DNA of 64,000 bases, taken from contig JAEKNN010000030.1 in assembly GCA_016464795.1 (NCBI GenBank), positions 1 to 64,000 of the forward strand, in the 5' to 3' direction. This document shows positions 31,766 through 40,878 of this stretch, in pieces (position 1 is the first letter of the stretch; each line of letters begins with the position of its first letter). Under the pieces are notes generated by a model. It ran no database searches. It was not told where the DNA came from and was given only the letters and a program-made list of their open reading frames with translations. A program made the position numbers and the translations under genes. The DNA is from Candidatus Amunia macphersoniae. Its GTDB lineage: Bacteria; Chloroflexota; Dormibacteria; Aeolococcales; Aeolococcaceae.

Positions 31766-33108
31766 GTGTCGACCGCCTTCGACGATCACCACCCGCCGGC
31801 AGCCGATCTGATCGCCGATTGCGTCCACTGCGGCTTCTGTCTGCCTGCCTGTCCCACCTACCAGCTCTGGGGCGAGGAGATGGACTCTCCGCGCGGGCGA
31901 ATCCTTCTGATGGACGCGGCGCGCCGTGGCGAGGTGGACCTGAACGACACCGTCGTGCAGCACTGGGACGCGTGTCTGGGGTGCATGGCGTGCGAGACGG
32001 CGTGCCCGTCGGGGGTGCGCTACGGACGCCTCATCGAGCAGACCAGACAGCAGGTGGAGCGCCGTTACCGCCGTCCCTGGCCAGAACGCATGTATCGCGC
32101 CGTCCTCTTCGCGATGCTGCCCTACCCGCTCCGCCTGCGCGTGGTCGCGCAGTTGCTGGCCCTCTACCAGGACAGCGGCGCGCGACGTGTGCTGCGCCGC
32201 TCAGGTGTCATTCGCAGACTTCCCCAACGGCTCCGCGAGCTGGAGGCACTGGCACCGGCACTGAGTCGGCGCCGTCTCGAGGAGAGCCCGCCGGAAAGGT
32301 CCGCTGTGTCAGTGGGACGAGCGCGCCTTCGTGTCACGCTTCTGCGCGGCTGCGTCCAGCGGGCCTTCTTCGGCGACGTCAGCGCGGCGACGGCGCGCGT
32401 GCTGGCCGCCTTCGGCTGCGAGGTGAGCGCTCCCCGGCAGCAGGGGTGCTGCGGTGCGCTCGAGCTGCACAGTGGGCGCGAGCAGGCCGCGCTGGCCCGC
32501 GCACGCGCCCTGATCGCTGCACTGGAGGCCGGTGATCCTGACCGCATCGCAGTCGATTCGGCGGGTTGCGGCGCGTCGATGAAGGAGTACGGCGAACTGC
32601 TCGCGGACGACCCGATCTGGGCCGAGCGCGCCGCCGCCTTCTCCGCAAGGGTTCGCGACGTGTCGGAGATCCTCGACGAGTTGGGACCACCGGCACTCCC
32701 AATGCACCCCTTGCCGATGCGGCTGGCCTACCACGACGCGTGCCACCTCGCCCACGCCCAGAGGGTGCGCGCTCAACCGCGCCGAGCGCTCAGCGCCATC
32801 CCCGGTGTGGAGCTGATCCCACTTGACGACGCGGATCTCTGCTGCGGCAGCGCCGGCGTCTACAACCTCGTGGAGCCAGGGCCGGCCGCCGATCTCGGAC
32901 GGCGCAAGGCGGCATCCATCGCCACGGCCGCGCCGCAGGCACTGGCTGCAGGCAATCCCGGCTGCTTGCTGCAGATCGGCGCCCATCTGTCGCTCGCGGG
33001 ACAGGCGATTCCCACCTTTCACCCGGTCGAGCTGCTCGACGCCTCGCTGCGCGGCATCCCCGTCGAACGGTTGCTCGCCGACCGCTCTCGTCTGCTGGCG
33101 ATCGACCG

Positions 33109-33112
<4 letters not shown>
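31766..33112 (+). CDS. glcF: Glycolate oxidase iron-sulfur subunit
   Basis: A 448-residue protein with two 4Fe-4S motifs: C19, C22, C25 and C29 in [15 protein letters not shown], and C70, C73, C76 and C80 in [14 protein letters not shown]. Two CCG (heterodisulfide-reductase-like) domains follow, with [12 protein letters not shown] and [12 protein letters not shown]. It carries electrons from the flavin subunits toward quinone at the membrane. The GTG at 31766 directly follows the glcE stop. Its own stop overlaps the aceB GTG by four bases. Confidence 0.92.
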
Positions 33113-34722
<1,610 letters not shown>

Positions 34723-36436
34723 GCACCAGGTAGGCCAGCAGCGCCAGGGTCCACGGCATGTTGTGCCGGATGATCGCGCCCTCGTTGCGCACGTAGCGGC
34801 TCGTCGACACCCCGACGCTCGCCGTCTGCGGGGCCACCGGCTTGCCCACCTCCGCTCCCACCGAGTTCAGTGAGGGAAGCAGCAGCAACGGGAAGTGGAG
34901 CAGCTTGCCGACGGTGTTCTGGAACGCCCCGAACAGCGCGTTGGTCGAGGTGTTGCTGCCCGAGAGGGCCACGCCGATCCAGCCGAGGATCGGGGCGATC
35001 AGGATGAACGCGGTGCCCGCCTTGGAGAAGGCGAACGCAAGTGAGTTGCCGAGCCCCCCGAAGGTGAAGACGAACGCCAGCCCGAAGATCAGCACGCCGA
35101 CGATCAGCGCACCCCACATCTGGTGGAAGGTGCGTGACGCGACCTCACGGAACTGCCCGGCCGAGGGACGCAGCAAGAGCAGCATCACGATCCAGGCGCT
35201 GGCGATCGCTGTCCCGGCGATGAACGGGGTGAAGTTGAAGACCGAGACCACCGTCTTGCCTGTCACCGACGACACCGCGCTGACGCTGGCCTTGGCGAGG
35301 CTGTAGGCGGGCAGGCGCGACCAGGGACCGGTCCAGGCGACCACCACCGCGATGAGCACCAGGAACGGAAGCACCGCTCCGACGATCTGACGGGTGGCCA
35401 GCGGCTCCTCGCGGGGGCGGGCGTCCTCGGAGATGGGCACCCCGCCATAGCCGAGCACGGTGCGCGGCCGCCAAACCCGCAGGAAGAGCAGGGTGACGGT
35501 GAACGCGGTCAGCGCGCCCACCACGTCGGGGAGGTAAGGGCCGAAGAACTGGGAGACCGGGAACTGCCCGAGGATGTACCCGAATGAACCCACTATCGCC
35601 AGGGGCCAGCCGTCGCGCAGGCCGCGCCGGCCGCTCACCAGGTAGATGAGGATCCATGGCGGCAGCAGCGCGAGCACCGCGACGATGCGGCCAATCGATG
35701 CCGTCAGCGCGTTGAGCGACAGTCCCGTGACCGCCGCCAAGGAGATGATCGGTGCGCCCAGCGCCCCGAATGACACAGGAGCGTTGTTGGCGATCGCGGC
35801 GACCCGGATGGCATCGATCTCGACCACACCGAGACTGACGAGAATCGGCGCCACCACCGCCCAGGGATAGCCGAACCCGACAAGTCCCTCCAGGAGCGCG
35901 CCGAACGCCCAGGCCAGCAGGATGGTCTGGACCCGGATGTCGGCGGTGGCCTGGGAGACCAGCCAGCGCTGAAACGTGGGGAACACGCCGGTGACCATCA
36001 GGGTGTTGAAGATCACCACCCCCCAGAGCGTGATCCAGTCGACGGCGATGAGGCCGGTGAGGGCGCCGTACAGGAACGACTTGGCGGTGAGGTCGGCCGG
36101 CGCCTCCCAGAACGTGATCGCCAGCCCAACCGTCACCGCGGCGCCGATGATCGTGGCCACCCAGGCGCTGAGGCGGAAGACGGCGAGCAGGACCAGCAAC
36201 ACGATCACCGGCACCAGCGCCACCAGCGCGGTCAGCGCGAGGTTGCGCGCGGGATCCAGCACCTGATGAAACGCGGCGACGACCATGTGGTCCTCTCGGG
36301 TTCGACTGCTGAGCGACGGGATGATAGCCCAGGGTCACGTGCTCCTACGTCCCGCCCGCCTGCGGCCCCCGATCGACCTGCGCGACGCCTCCGCCCGGCG
36401 TCTGCTTTGCAGCGGCTACCCGCCGCTGGCGTTCGG

Positions 36437-37432
36437 CTACTGAGAGGGGAGTGTCGCGAGATCCGCGACGCGGCGGAGAGGCGTCGGCCGCCCCGGCGCG
36501 CTGACGCTCGGCGACCGCCACTCGCCAGAGGCCAGCACGTGGTCGACGAACCGCCGCGCCATCGGCGGCAGGTCGAGCTGCCCAACCAGGTGAAAGGGCC
36601 TGCTCAAGGGCGTGCCGGGAAGCGGCACCTCGACGAGGCGCCCGCCCGCCAGTTCGGAGACGACAGTCTCCCGAGCCACCAGAGTCGCGCCCAGCCCCGC
36701 GACCGCGCCGGCGATGACGGCGCCGTGGGAGCCGAGGGTGAGACAGGGCGCATCGTTGCCGAGGGAGTGGAGGATGCTCTCGAGGGTCGCCCGCATCCCA
36801 CTGCCGGGCTCGCGGAGCAGCCAGGCCGTCTCGTGCCCGCGCACCCCGTGCCGTCCGGGTGTGGCGACGATGACGAGATCATTGGCATGCACTGCGTAGG
36901 TCACCATGCCGGAGTCCAGTGGAGGCCGGCCGGCAACCGCAAGGTCGACATGATGGCCGCGCAGCCGGCTCCACACCCTGTTGCGCGGCGCCACCTCCAG
37001 CTCGACACCGACGTCGGGCAGCAGCCCGCGGAAACCGGCGAGCAGGTCTGGTAGGTGAACCTCGGCGACGCTGCTGACGGCGGCGATCCGCAACCATCCG
37101 CGGTCCGGGCTCGCCTCGCCCAGGGCTGCCATCGCCGCCGCCTCGAGCTCGCCGAGCAGGTGCCGCACACGTTCCGCGTACCGGACCCCCGCCGGCGTGA
37201 GCCTGACCCCGCGACCCGCCCTCTCGATGAGCGCAGCGCCGATCTGCCGCTGCAGCGAAGCGACCGACGCCGAGACGGCGGACTCTGTGACATTGAGCTG
37301 CTCGGCGCCGGCTCGGACTGAGCCGAGCTCGGCCACAGCTGCGAAGGTGCGCAGCTGTCCGGCCGTGACCGCGAGCACGCTGTTGCGCCGAGCCCGGGAG
37401 AGGCTCCCCAGCGGTGGGCTGTCCGACGACAT
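36437..37432 (-). CDS. LysR family transcriptional regulator
   Basis: A 331-residue regulator. Residues about 22-82 form the winged helix (LRTFAAVAELGSVRAGAEQLNVTESAVSASVASLQRQIGAALIER), a linker helix follows, and residues about 110-310 are the periplasmic-binding-like effector domain (LRIAAVSSVAEVHLPDLLAGFRGLLPDV, DLAVAGRPP). It resembles the CbbR/CysB-like side of the family. The effector could be glycolate or glyoxylate, by context only. The promoter reads TCGACT, 17 bases, AATGAT, then six bases to the ATG at 37432, so the mRNA is probably leaderless. It is upstream of and codirectional with the permease gene. Confidence 0.87.
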   Translation of the reverse strand: MSSDSPPLGSLSRARRNSVLAVTAGQLRTFAAVAELGSVRAGAEQLNVTESAVSASVASLQRQIGAALIERAGRGVRLTPAGVRYAERVRHLLGELEAAAMAALGEASPDRGWLRIAAVSSVAEVHLPDLLAGFRGLLPDVGVELEVAPRNRVWSRLRGHHVDLAVAGRPPLDSGMVTYAVHANDLVIVATPGRHGVRGHETAWLLREPGSGMRATLESILHSLGNDAPCLTLGSHGAVIAGAVAGLGATLVARETVVSELAGGRLVEVPLPGTPLSRPFHLVGQLDLPPMARRFVDHVLASGEWRSPSVSAPGRPTPLRRVADLATLPSQ

Positions 37433-37524: not shown

Positions 37525-37553
37525 TTGACACCCTGCAGAGCCCTCCATAGGCT
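37525..37553 (+). promoter_or_regulatory. Near-consensus sigma70-type promoter of the membrane-protein operon
   Basis: TTGACA (37525-37530), a 17-base spacer, and TAGGCT (37548-37553). Transcription should start near 37560, giving a leader of about 145 bases before the first gene at 37705. This is the best -35/-10 pair I see in the window. Confidence 0.65.
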
Positions 37554-37704: not shown

Positions 37705-38013
37705 ATGACCGACGCTGGGGTGGTCCACCGCTGGCTGCTGGGCTTGGCCGCGGCCCTGATCGTGGTCATCATCGCGGCAACGCTCGTCCTGGTGATCGTC
37801 AACCACGCCAGGGCGATCCTCGTCTCGGTGACCCGCAGCCGGCACGCGGTCTCGCGGGTTCACTCCAACGTCGCCGCCATCGCTGAGCTGGGAGCCGCAG
37901 CCACCACCACCGACCGCATCCTGGCCGGCGCGCTGGGCATCGAGGCCAAGGTCCACCTGGTCGCCGATGCCCTCGAGCGAACCAACGTGCCGGCCGGGCG
38001 GGGAGGGCGCTGA
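37705..38013 (+). CDS. Membrane operon protein 1 (single-TM, unknown)
   Basis: A 102-residue protein of unknown family. One membrane helix (WLLGLAAALIVVIIAATLVLVIV, about 10-32) is followed by a soluble helical tail of about 70 residues containing AVSRVHSNVAAIAELGAAATTTDRILAGALGIEAKVHLVADAL. The tail pattern (repeated Ala/Thr/Asn heptads) recurs in the proteins downstream, suggesting a shared helical bundle. A strong site, GGGAGGAG, lies before the ATG. It is first in a six-gene run with gaps of 2 bases or overlaps. Confidence 0.75.
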   Translation: MTDAGVVHRWLLGLAAALIVVIIAATLVLVIVNHARAILVSVTRSRHAVSRVHSNVAAIAELGAAATTTDRILAGALGIEAKVHLVADALERTNVPAGRGGR

Positions 38014-38015
38014 GC

Positions 38016-38393
38016 ATGCAGACGTCCGCGCAGAGCCAGCTGCTGTGGTGGCTGGCCCTCGCCACCGGGGCCCTGGTGATCATCGTCGTCGCCACCCTGT
38101 TGACGCTGGTGCTCACCGAGGCGAGCGCCATCGCTGAGGAAGCGCAGATCATCAGCCACAAGGCCAGGAGCGTCAGCCTCGCGACCATCAAGCTTCTCTA
38201 CGCGCTCCGGATCAACTCCGCCCTCACCGGCGTGGGCGACGGGGCCGGAGCCATCCTGCGCCAGGCGGGGCGTGTTGTTGTGCACGTGCAGTCGTGTCCC
38301 GGCTGCCCCAATTGCCGATCGCCGCGCGAGCTGCAGCCATCCGCTGTCAGGCCGAAGGGGCCGGGGCCGCCCGGCCCGTCGAGCTGGACATGA
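38016..38393 (+). CDS. Membrane operon protein 2 (single-TM, Cys-containing tail)
   Basis: A 125-residue protein of unknown family. The membrane helix is LLWWLALATGALVIIVVATLLTLVL (about 9-33), and a helical segment (ASAIAEEAQIISHKARSVSLATIKLLYALRINSALTGVGDGAGAIL) follows. The tail holds three closely spaced cysteines (CPGCPNC) and ends Pro-rich. The ATG at 38016 is two bases after the previous stop. Its stop overlaps the next start (ATGA, 38390-38393). Confidence 0.65.
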   Translation: MQTSAQSQLLWWLALATGALVIIVVATLLTLVLTEASAIAEEAQIISHKARSVSLATIKLLYALRINSALTGVGDGAGAILRQAGRVVVHVQSCPGCPNCRSPRELQPSAVRPKGPGPPGPSSWT

Positions 38394-38674
38394 TCGTTCT
38401 GCTCATGGTGCTCACTGCCCTCTTGACAGTCGTGTTCTTCGTCGTGCTGCTGCGCTTCCTAGCGGCCATTGCCGCCCGCCTGCACTCGATCGGCGGCTCC
38501 TTGGGGCAGATCAACGTTGAGGTAGCAGGCGTCCAGGGACACACCTCCTTCATCACACCGGAGCTGACCAAGCTCAACAACGGGCTCGGCAGTGCCAACG
38601 CGGGCCTGGCCGCCGTCGACGGCGGTCTGGTCGCTCTGGCGGAAGCGGCCGTCGCCCAGAGGGGATACCGATGA
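38390..38674 (+). CDS. Membrane operon protein 3 (single-TM, unknown)
   Basis: A 94-residue protein with an N-terminal membrane helix (IVLLMVLTALLTVVFFVVLLRFL, 2-24) and a soluble tail with LHSIGGSLGQINVEVAGVQGHTSFITPELTKLNNGLGSANAGLAAVDGGLVAL. The repeated NxGLxxxxxGL pattern in the tail resembles protein 5. I chose the ATG at 38390 because it overlaps the upstream stop (ATGA) and directly begins the membrane helix. It overlaps the next gene in the same way (38671-38674). The function is unknown. Confidence 0.7.
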   Translation: MIVLLMVLTALLTVVFFVVLLRFLAAIAARLHSIGGSLGQINVEVAGVQGHTSFITPELTKLNNGLGSANAGLAAVDGGLVALAEAAVAQRGYR

Positions 38675-38991
38675 TCGCCGACGACGGGCAGTACACAGCA
38701 GTCCTGGTGATCTGGACGCTCCTTCTCGTTCTGGTGGTGCTCGTGCTGCTCCCGGCCAGCCTGTTGGCGGCGGCCCGCCTGGTCAGGTCTGCGCGCAGGG
38801 TCGACGCACGGTTGGCCGCGACCCTGAAGGCCGCGACGGCCATCGTCGACAACACCGCACCCACCCGCGGCCTGCTCGATACGACCATCCGGTCGGCCAG
38901 CGACGTGCTGGCGACTGTGCGCGGCATCGACCAGCACGCCGGCGCCACCGAGGGCGTCCTGGTCAGGCGTGCCGCCGGCGCGAAGTCGTGA
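38671..38991 (+). CDS. Membrane operon protein 4 (single-TM, unknown)
   Basis: A 106-residue protein. The membrane helix LVIWTLLLVLVVLVLLPASLLAAARLV (about 12-38) is followed by RVDARLAATLKAATAIVDNTAPTRGLLDTTIRSASDVLATVRGIDQHAGA, a helical tail with regularly spaced Thr, Ala and Asn residues. VDNTA here and ADNTA in protein 5 hint at common descent. The start overlaps the previous stop (ATGA) and the stop overlaps the next GTG (38988-38991). The function is unknown. Confidence 0.72.
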   Translation: MIADDGQYTAVLVIWTLLLVLVVLVLLPASLLAAARLVRSARRVDARLAATLKAATAIVDNTAPTRGLLDTTIRSASDVLATVRGIDQHAGATEGVLVRRAAGAKS

Positions 38992-39278
38992 GCCTCGACA
39001 GCTGGGACAGCGTTCTGACGATCGTTTCGATGGTCGTCGCCTCGATCCTTGCCATCGTGCTGGCGGTCACCCTGGTGTTGACCGCCGCGGCCCTTGGACG
39101 GGTCCGCCGCGCGGCTGCGCAGCTCCCCGGCGGGCTCGAGGCCGCCGCCGACAACACCGCCAGCCTGCCCGACCAGATCCCCACCATCAACAGCGCCTTG
39201 ACCGCCATCCAGGATGGCCTCGACTCCGTCGACACCAGCGTCCTCGGCATCGCGCGCGCCTACGGCCTGGTGCGCTGA
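38988..39278 (+). CDS. Membrane operon protein 5 (single-TM, unknown)
   Basis: A 96-residue protein with a membrane helix (IVSMVVASILAIVLAVTLVLTAAAL, about 12-36) and a tail with LPGGLEAAADNTASLPDQIPTINSALTAIQDGLDSVDTSVLGIARAYGLVR. The start is a GTG overlapping the previous stop by four bases. The next gene begins 10 bases after its stop. The function is unknown; its architecture is the same as proteins 1-4. Confidence 0.72.
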   Translation: MSLDSWDSVLTIVSMVVASILAIVLAVTLVLTAAALGRVRRAAAQLPGGLEAAADNTASLPDQIPTINSALTAIQDGLDSVDTSVLGIARAYGLVR

Positions 39279-39288
39279 GGGTGACGCC

Positions 39289-40878
39289 ATGACTCGTCGC
39301 GCGGAGCGCAATTTCAACACGTTGTCCTGGTCAGTGGTGGTGTTCGTCGGCCTGGTCGTGATCACGCTCGTCCTGGCGCTGCAGCTCTTTCCCCGCCTGA
39401 GCAGCGGCCAGCGGGTCCTCGACGGCGCGCGTCCCGCATTCACCGACGAGCGCGTCGCCGGCGACGTCGCAGGAGTCAAGATGGTGTCGAACATCGTCGA
39501 CCTCGCCGACCCGCTGGTCAGGGATCCGCGGACAGCGCCCGAGGTCACCGGGCTCATCGCCTATGTGTCACAGCAGACCGGCCTTCCCCAAGCTGCTGTT
39601 GTCAGCGCGCTGCAATCCAAGTTCCCCCACTCGTTGGCACTGCTGCAGGCGATCCCACTGCAATCGGTCAGCGCTGAGCTCCCTCAGCTGATCGCGTTCG
39701 TGGCGAGCCATTCCACGCTCACACCCGTGGCTCTCCTCGCCGCCCTCAACCAGAACTTCCCTCACCTCGCCCAAGCGATCAATGCCCTGCCACGCATGAC
39801 CTCAGGCTGGAACAACGTACCGGGCACGGCTGGCGTGACCCGGTTCGACGGCTCGCCGGTGACCACCGTCCCGCAGGTGCGCGACTACCTTGCCGGCGAT
39901 GTGGTCGGCGCTGTCCAGAGCCAGCGGGCCAACTTCCAGACGCTGGACCGCACCTCGCCCGGGCTTGTTGTCATCCCCGCGGTGCTGCTGGCGATCGGGA
40001 TCATCGCCACCCTGTACGGACTGGTGATGCTTCTGGCCCTGCGGCGGGTCGGGGTGCTCGATACGGGCAGCCGTGAGCGCCGGCTCACACTGGGCGCGTG
40101 GGCAGTCGTCGGCGTGGTCGGGATCATCGTGCTCGCGCTCGTCCCCATCTGGTCTCTGGTCGGGCGTCTCGACGCCGGCCAGTCAGTGCTCGACAACCTC
40201 CGGCCCGCATTCACCGACGCCCGAGTCGCGGGCGATGCGGCCGGCGTGAGCATGGTCTCGACCATCGTCGACGTGGCCGATCCGATCGTCCTCGAGTCGG
40301 GTGGAGCCGCCTCCGAGGTGCCCAAACTGGTGAGCTTCGTGGCCACGGCCACGGGTTTGTCTGCTGCCCAGGTCCTGTCTGCCATCCAGCAGAACTTCCC
40401 CCACGTCTACGGGCTGCTCAACGCCATCCCGCTGGAGTCGGTCACTGCCGAGCAGTCTGGGCTGACCACCTTCCTGACCACCACTTTGAAGATCACGCCC
40501 GACCAGTTGAACGCCGCCCTGCAGAAGAATTTCCCGCAGATCGCACAGAGCCTGGCGGTGCTCCCTGCGGTCACCGCCGGATGGGCCAACGTGCCCGGTA
40601 CCCAGAATCTCACAAGGTTCGACGGGACCCCGGTGCGATCGGTGACGCAGGTGCGCAACTACTTCGCGCTCGACGTGGTTCCGGCTCTGCAGACGACGCG
40701 AGCCGACTTTCAACGGCTCGATGGTTTGCCGCCGCCGGTCACCTGGGTCCCGCCACTTCTCCTCATCGCCGGTGGCCTCGTCCTCTACTACTCCCTGGTG
40801 ATGATGTACATCTGGCGGCCTCGACCGCGAGGCTCGCCGGCGGTCGATAGGTCCGCCAATCGGGCACCTGCAGCGTAG
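39289..40878 (+). CDS. Membrane operon protein 6: duplicated 4-TM protein with NFP repeats
   Basis: A 529-residue protein made of two homologous halves offset by about 257 residues. Each half is TM helix, external domain, TM helix. Matching blocks are GQRVLDGARPAFTD (from residue 40) and GQSVLDNLRPAFTD (from residue 297), NVPGT...TRFDGSPVTTVPQVRDYL and NVPGT...TRFDGTPVRSVTQVRNYF. Within each half a motif of the form ALxxxFPxxxxxxxAIP or ALP occurs twice, giving four copies. It has no family I recognise. Membrane helices lie near 13-34, 224-247, 268-290 and 490-510. GAGG precedes the ATG at 39289. It closes the six-gene operon and is probably its structural core. Confidence 0.8.
   Translation: MTRRAERNFNTLSWSVVVFVGLVVITLVLALQLFPRLSSGQRVLDGARPAFTDERVAGDVAGVKMVSNIVDLADPLVRDPRTAPEVTGLIAYVSQQTGLPQAAVVSALQSKFPHSLALLQAIPLQSVSAELPQLIAFVASHSTLTPVALLAALNQNFPHLAQAINALPRMTSGWNNVPGTAGVTRFDGSPVTTVPQVRDYLAGDVVGAVQSQRANFQTLDRTSPGLVVIPAVLLAIGIIATLYGLVMLLALRRVGVLDTGSRERRLTLGAWAVVGVVGIIVLALVPIWSLVGRLDAGQSVLDNLRPAFTDARVAGDAAGVSMVSTIVDVADPIVLESGGAASEVPKLVSFVATATGLSAAQVLSAIQQNFPHVYGLLNAIPLESVTAEQSGLTTFLTTTLKITPDQLNAALQKNFPQIAQSLAVLPAVTAGWANVPGTQNLTRFDGTPVRSVTQVRNYFALDVVPALQTTRADFQRLDGLPPPVTWVPPLLLIAGGLVLYYSLVMMYIWRPRPRGSPAVDRSANRAPAA

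Follow-up and report, generated by a model that had tools for sequence, protein, structure and literature searches.

An operon of HylTM-like membrane proteins in Candidatus Amunia macphersoniae: a candidate module for trace-gas oxidation

Introduction

What could an operon do that encodes six membrane proteins and no known enzyme, regulator or transporter? This question is raised by positions 37705-40878 (+ strand) of a stretch of 64,000 nucleotides, hereafter the window, that comprises positions 1 to 64,000 of contig JAEKNN010000030.1 from the chloroflexotal bacterium Candidatus Amunia macphersoniae (assembly GCA_016464795.1; a 2.92-Mb draft in 72 contigs, 91% complete). The original prediction, made from the window alone, described six unrecognised proteins and left their job open. 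Here, we report that the five small proteins of the operon are near certain homologues of transmembrane (TM) proteins encoded in [NiFe]-hydrogenase operons, that homologous arrays are found within carbon monoxide (CO) dehydrogenase clusters of related genomes, and that these gene neighbourhoods narrow the function of the operon to the oxidation of H2 or CO. We then weigh a specific role, namely membrane docking and quinone exchange, against the alternatives.

Results

The five small proteins and the TM proteins of hydrogenase operons

The six open reading frames (ORFs) of the predicted operon were recovered at the position given above, with all frames intact. The five small products, W1 to W5, split into two subfamilies, A and B (aa, amino acids):

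37705..38013, +, gene 1 (W1), TM1-like small membrane protein, subfamily B, 102 aa
38016..38393, +, gene 2 (W2), TM2-like small membrane protein, subfamily B, CPxCPxC tail, 125 aa
38390..38674, +, gene 3 (W3), TM3-like small membrane protein, subfamily A, 94 aa
38671..38991, +, gene 4 (W4), TM4-like small membrane protein, subfamily B, 106 aa
38988..39278, +, gene 5 (W5), TM5-like small membrane protein, subfamily A, 96 aa, GTG start
39289..40878, +, gene 6, 529-aa protein with two tandem repeats (39289-40074 and 40075-40878)
37525..37553, +, candidate promoter TTGACA-17 nucleotides-TAGGCT, read directly from the sequence

Genes 1-5 match the small membrane genes located between hydS and hydL in locus L054 one-to-one and collinearly, in the order B-B-A-B-A. 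Amino acid identity to these counterparts is 27% for W1, 35% for W4 and 36% for each of W2, W3 and W5; the respective z-scores for W1 to W5, computed against shuffles that preserve the composition of the helix and that of the tail, are 5.0, 13.2, 16.8, 10.6 and 14.9. The weakest of the five, W1, has its best matches elsewhere, in the TM genes of L057 (z 7.2) and in TM1 of L052 (z 7.1). Profiles built from hydrogenase-operon sequences alone and searched against 2,537 ORFs from 25 other loci match all five window genes with E values of 1e-11 to 7e-17 (type B: W1 2.7e-13, W2 1.1e-11, W4 2.5e-12; type A: W3 5.2e-17, W5 6.8e-17). Furthermore, W2 and TM2 of L052 have in common a CPxCPxC tail with the same cysteine spacing (Cys 94/97/100 and Cys 96/99/102, respectively). 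Taken at the level of sequence comparison, homology of the five small proteins to the hydrogenase-operon TM proteins is near certain.

A profile built from three small proteins matched tandem arrays in the phylum. TM arrays are flanked by hydrogenase subunit genes, recognized by Pfam matches and homology, in eight genomes of the phylum, and in L120 and L122 the arrays are divergent from a hydrogenase. The published counterpart of the array is HylTM1-5, a set encoded in the gene clusters of group 1l [NiFe]-hydrogenases (PMC9561532) and likewise made up of five short proteins, each predicted to have a single TM helix. Homologous arrays occur in the clusters of the reference loci L052-L060, the assignment of which to group 1l rests on their layout, which is as published, and not on hydrogenase phylogeny (the large subunit of L053 is 43% identical to group 1h examples). 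Unlike HylTM1-5, the window array adjoins no hydrogenase genes, is joined by a sixth gene and has relatives located in CO dehydrogenase clusters; it does not lie between hydrogenase small and large subunit genes, and we do not file it as a group 1l cluster. Thus, of the six proteins taken to be unrecognised, five have a described counterpart, and only the 529-aa protein still fits that description. The proposal that the five diverged inside the operon is not borne out: because each has its own positional orthologue in hydrogenase operons that belong to a different family within the phylum, the five are older paralogues, the divergence of which predates this operon.

Arrays in CO dehydrogenase clusters of relatives

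In the Lac Pavin genome (L012), a single row of + strand genes consists of coxM, coxS, coxL, a XdhC/YHS protein gene (coxF), coxG, five TM genes and the 529-aa gene. The cox genes M, S, F and G of this row were identified by sequence reading and homology among clusters, and coxL, additionally, by its active-site loop, AYRCSFR, that defines it as form I. A profile search of the genomes that encode the 529-aa protein, together with inspection of the contigs, revealed further arrangements. In L117, coxM-S-L-G is followed by five TM genes; the last of these (L117:299-967) carries a long C-terminal extension resembling a separate small domain. The row in L118 reads coxM-S, five TM genes, coxM-S-L-F-D/E, coxG and a second coxL (AYACSFR), with the 529-aa gene convergent with the second coxL on the same contig and preceded by a YceI-like gene. 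This is one cluster (L118:2343-16253) with two form I coxL genes and a coxM-coxS pair on either side of the TM array. In L013/L123, coxM/coxS lie near a 529-aa homologue, and an array fragment is present at the contig edge. The association of the array modules with CO dehydrogenase in relatives, in three genomes and one fragment, is well supported by these gene orders.

Stand-alone sets are found as well. L124/L008 has the order B-B-A-[529-aa]-B-A, and the five-plus-one set recurs there and in L012; the operon unit is not a chance assembly. This survey of gene neighbourhoods in related genomes, which had been proposed as a check, found the set conserved as a unit, and the suggestion that the proteins assemble into one membrane complex remains plausible. 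In the family to which the window genome belongs, L058:5426-9197 contains nine array genes (B-B-A-B-A-B-A-B-A), several encoding proteins of about 200 aa, with no hydrogenase or cox genes recognized adjacent to them.

The 529-aa protein

The product of gene 6 is a tandem duplication, the halves of which align over their full length at 50% identity, each consisting of a TM helix, about 195 aa and another TM helix. Both ends of the protein and its middle loop are positively charged, so that the two domains of about 195 aa should be extracytoplasmic. An AlphaFold2 model built with 16 sequences is all-helical (mean pLDDT 84.9). The Tweety homologues TTYH1-3 were among the top Foldseek matches of the full model, with E values of 0.008 or worse and TM-scores mostly below 0.2; the single-repeat model listed no TTYH, so that the resemblance was not upheld at the level of the repeat. 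As judged from profile searches, the protein belongs to no named Pfam or NCBIfam family; all six operon proteins yielded only sub-threshold matches to these databases, none of them consistently common to homologues.

A match to the 529-aa protein (39% identity, covering 96% of the query) was detected on plasmid pMYCCH.01 of Mycolicibacterium chubuense NBB4, and a profile of four repeats retrieved 18 loci in addition to this plasmid, all labelled as Actinomycetota in their records. A single-protein pattern scan of genome contigs found nothing, no homologue was present among 100 relatives of the host genome, and 400 genomes of the phylum yielded no convincing one, the weak matches (E 1e-4 or worse) being taken as chance. 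In the phylogenetic tree, the mycobacterial proteins form one clade (100/100), and the window protein groups with that of L012 (87/86) among the non-mycobacterial members. In six mycobacterial loci, the 529-aa gene is the last one after a row with the layout of an mce operon (annotated MCE and RDD in the NBB4 plasmid), the position of an accessory gene following mce and mas/RDD genes. Differently from those operons, the window contains no MCE, YrbE, mas or RDD gene, and those mycobacterial genomes lack a TM array. The mce and YceI neighbours suggest a link of the 529-aa protein to lipid or quinone handling.

The carriers of this homologue at the end of an mce operon with mas and RDD genes (L017, L018, L020-L023; L006) are environmental mycobacteria; three of the strains, NBB4, ENV421 and ENV482, are hydrocarbon degraders. 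The homologue at L014:2620-4194 is apparently frameshifted in its second half. At L013:4547-5338, the homologue lies between a LysR gene and a gene for a CbbX-like AAA protein, identified by eye, which hints at CO2 fixation genes beside cox.

Operon layout, promoter and host genome

The layout described in the original prediction is confirmed. The products of genes 1-5 each have a single strong hydrophobic helix, near the N-terminus, and that of gene 6 has four such helices. Genes 1 and 2 are 2 bases apart and genes 5 and 6 are 10 bases apart; the genes in between overlap, by ATGA at 38390 and 38671 and by GTGA at 38988. A purine-rich ribosome-binding site (GGGAGGAG) lies upstream of gene 1. 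The promoter claimed to be near consensus is so in one half only: the -35 hexamer (TTGACA) is perfect, but the -10 hexamer (TAGGCT) matches at three of six positions, and a consensus scan requiring four of six per hexamer listed no promoter there. Searches for a phage or viral origin of the operon returned no match.

The operon is preceded by a LysR gene, which is divergent from it, and by a gene for lactate permease; it is followed by genes for an aminotransferase, an amidohydrolase, an amino-acid permease and glutamine synthetase. Positions 31766-37432, which encode an Fe-S (CCG) protein and malate synthase besides the lactate permease and the LysR protein, resemble a cluster for glycolate/lactate use, the presumed regulator of which is encoded divergently from the six-gene operon.

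Elsewhere in the host genome, contig C42 carries a form I cox cluster, in which coxL (loop AYACSFR) is accompanied by homologues of coxM, S, F, MocA, D, E and G. A coxL with the AYxCSFR loop is present on C42 and not in the window; in L012, L117 and L118, it lies in the same cluster as the array. The only hydrogenase large subunit found in the assembly is on contig C60, which ends 5' of its gene; it is 80% identical to the Cupriavidus necator enzyme and belongs to group 1h, and we rejected its assignment to group 1l. No group 1l hydrogenase was found in this assembly, which, being 91% complete, could have missed one. All six genome matches to MCE genes (MlaD, PF02470) are on contig C61 and represent the host mce operon; none lies beside the window operon. 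Array-profile matches in the genome are confined to the window, and with the mce operon on another contig, we rejected it as the partner.

Discussion

We consider it fairly probable that the operon encodes a membrane docking or quinone-exchange module for enzymes that oxidise trace H2 or CO, with HucM as its analogue; we infer both the partner and the mechanism. CO dehydrogenases and hydrogenases of these kinds sit on the cytoplasmic side of the membrane. In all of the small proteins but W2, which is undecided, the tail is net positive immediately after the helix and, by the positive-inside rule, should face the cytoplasm. Each small protein would then start outside the cell, cross the membrane with a single helix and end in a helical tail, mostly amphipathic, on the cytoplasmic side. 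Together, the five tails could form a bundle rooted in the membrane, to which a gas-oxidising enzyme of the cytoplasm docks and which supplies it with menaquinone, much as HucM serves Huc. Having two extracytoplasmic domains, the 529-aa protein would be the membrane or outer-face component. The likeliest partner in the host genome is the form I CO dehydrogenase encoded on C42 and, less likely, the group 1h hydrogenase on C60; we infer that the module serves CO dehydrogenase in this organism.

The analogy is functional. In Huc, a group 2a hydrogenase, four copies of HucM make up a hydrophobic coiled-coil tube that connects the enzyme with the membrane and is the probable path of menaquinone (PMC10017518). 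Similarly, the helical tails in the window are proposed to link enzyme and membrane and to provide a hydrophobic path; however, HucM is a single 188-aa protein, tetrameric and membrane-peripheral, whereas the window encodes five different proteins with one TM helix each, and a search of the Protein Data Bank with the subfamily-B profile (this subfamily only) listed no Huc subunit up to E 1. CoxG of the molybdenum-containing CO dehydrogenase is a menaquinone-binding membrane protein (PMC13240472). It has no apparent sequence relation to the array, and coxG directly precedes the TM array in L012 and L117; because both occur together, the array is an addition to CoxG, not a replacement.

How far does the evidence carry a role with CO dehydrogenase? 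TM arrays are present in 8 of the 17 genomes that encode the 529-aa protein versus 9 of the 399 that do not (P 2e-8), and CoxL at no less than 70% identity in 7 of 17 versus 6 of 399 (P 7e-8; the query came from one of the loci, the genome of which was excluded from this count), but these Fisher values overstate independence, as related genomes are counted as independent and 7 of the 17 are mycobacteria, and some of the counted genomes supplied sequences to the array profile. Several other observations weigh against the proposed role. No hydrogenase or CO dehydrogenase gene adjoins the operon in the window, where the neighbours are the divergent LysR gene and the aminotransferase gene, and the host clusters for CO dehydrogenase and group 1h hydrogenase have no TM array. 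Array matches are far rarer in the phylum than CO dehydrogenase. Mycobacteria carry the 529-aa protein in mce operons that lack the array, so its role is not tied to CO dehydrogenase. Tail amphipathicity exceeds that of shuffles for W2, W4 and W5 but is not significant for W1 and W3, and quinone binding and complex formation are predicted by analogy.

The placement of the homologue after an mce operon with mas/RDD genes in six mycobacterial loci, together with the mce operon on C61, is what a lipid-handling complex would lead one to expect, in which the 529-aa protein is an accessory of an MCE-type lipid importer, the small proteins are its membrane belt and the link to gas oxidation is incidental. 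We regard this as unlikely: the mycobacterial branch is a single clade from genomes without TM arrays, and among the other homologues none was observed within an mce operon, but three instances beside cox genes were found. It is rather unlikely, too, that the detached TM module anchors the group 1h hydrogenase (Hhy) of C60 instead of CO dehydrogenase. Hydrogenases are the enzymes most often accompanied by such TM genes, and the host genome does encode a group 1h large subunit closely similar to that of C. necator; yet no array lies near the group 1h large subunit gene, either in the host genome, where the contig is cut 5', or in two plasmid examples, and all arrays found beside an oxidoreductase other than a group 1l-like hydrogenase were beside CO dehydrogenase. 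The operon might, finally, be the remnant of a complete group 1l cluster that lost its hydrogenase genes, with TM genes that linger functionless or are on their way out. Collinearity with the hydrogenase TM genes and the failure to find a group 1l hydrogenase in the assembly are compatible with such decay, but the intact frames and tight overlaps of all six genes speak against it, as do the recurrence of arrays without an adjacent hydrogenase (L124, L058, L119; cox-linked L012, L117, L118) and the fact that the 529-aa gene and the array are joined not only in the window but also in L012 and L124; we consider this explanation improbable.

Returning to the docking and quinone-exchange module, we tentatively extend it, with less confidence than the reading for this operon, to the possibility that the five TM proteins and the 529-aa protein constitute an interchangeable module that moved between two unrelated trace-gas oxidases, [NiFe]-hydrogenase and molybdenum-containing CO dehydrogenase, with stand-alone operons such as that of the window serving in trans. 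In a limited literature search, the TM array was found described with group 1l hydrogenase only, and we regard HylTM arrays that occur apart from a hydrogenase, are linked to CO oxidation and have acquired a new sixth component as a variation on that known arrangement.

Oxidation of atmospheric H2 and CO sustains soil bacteria and regulates the atmosphere, and the transfer of electrons from cytoplasmic trace-gas hydrogenases and CO dehydrogenases to membrane quinones is understood in only a few cases, among them Huc with its HucM and CO dehydrogenase with its CoxG. The array with its sixth gene is a named gene set for experimental work, and the presence of the same five proteins in CO dehydrogenase clusters, as well as in operons that lack a hydrogenase but include the new sixth component, suggests that the oxidation of atmospheric H2 and that of CO share a membrane part.

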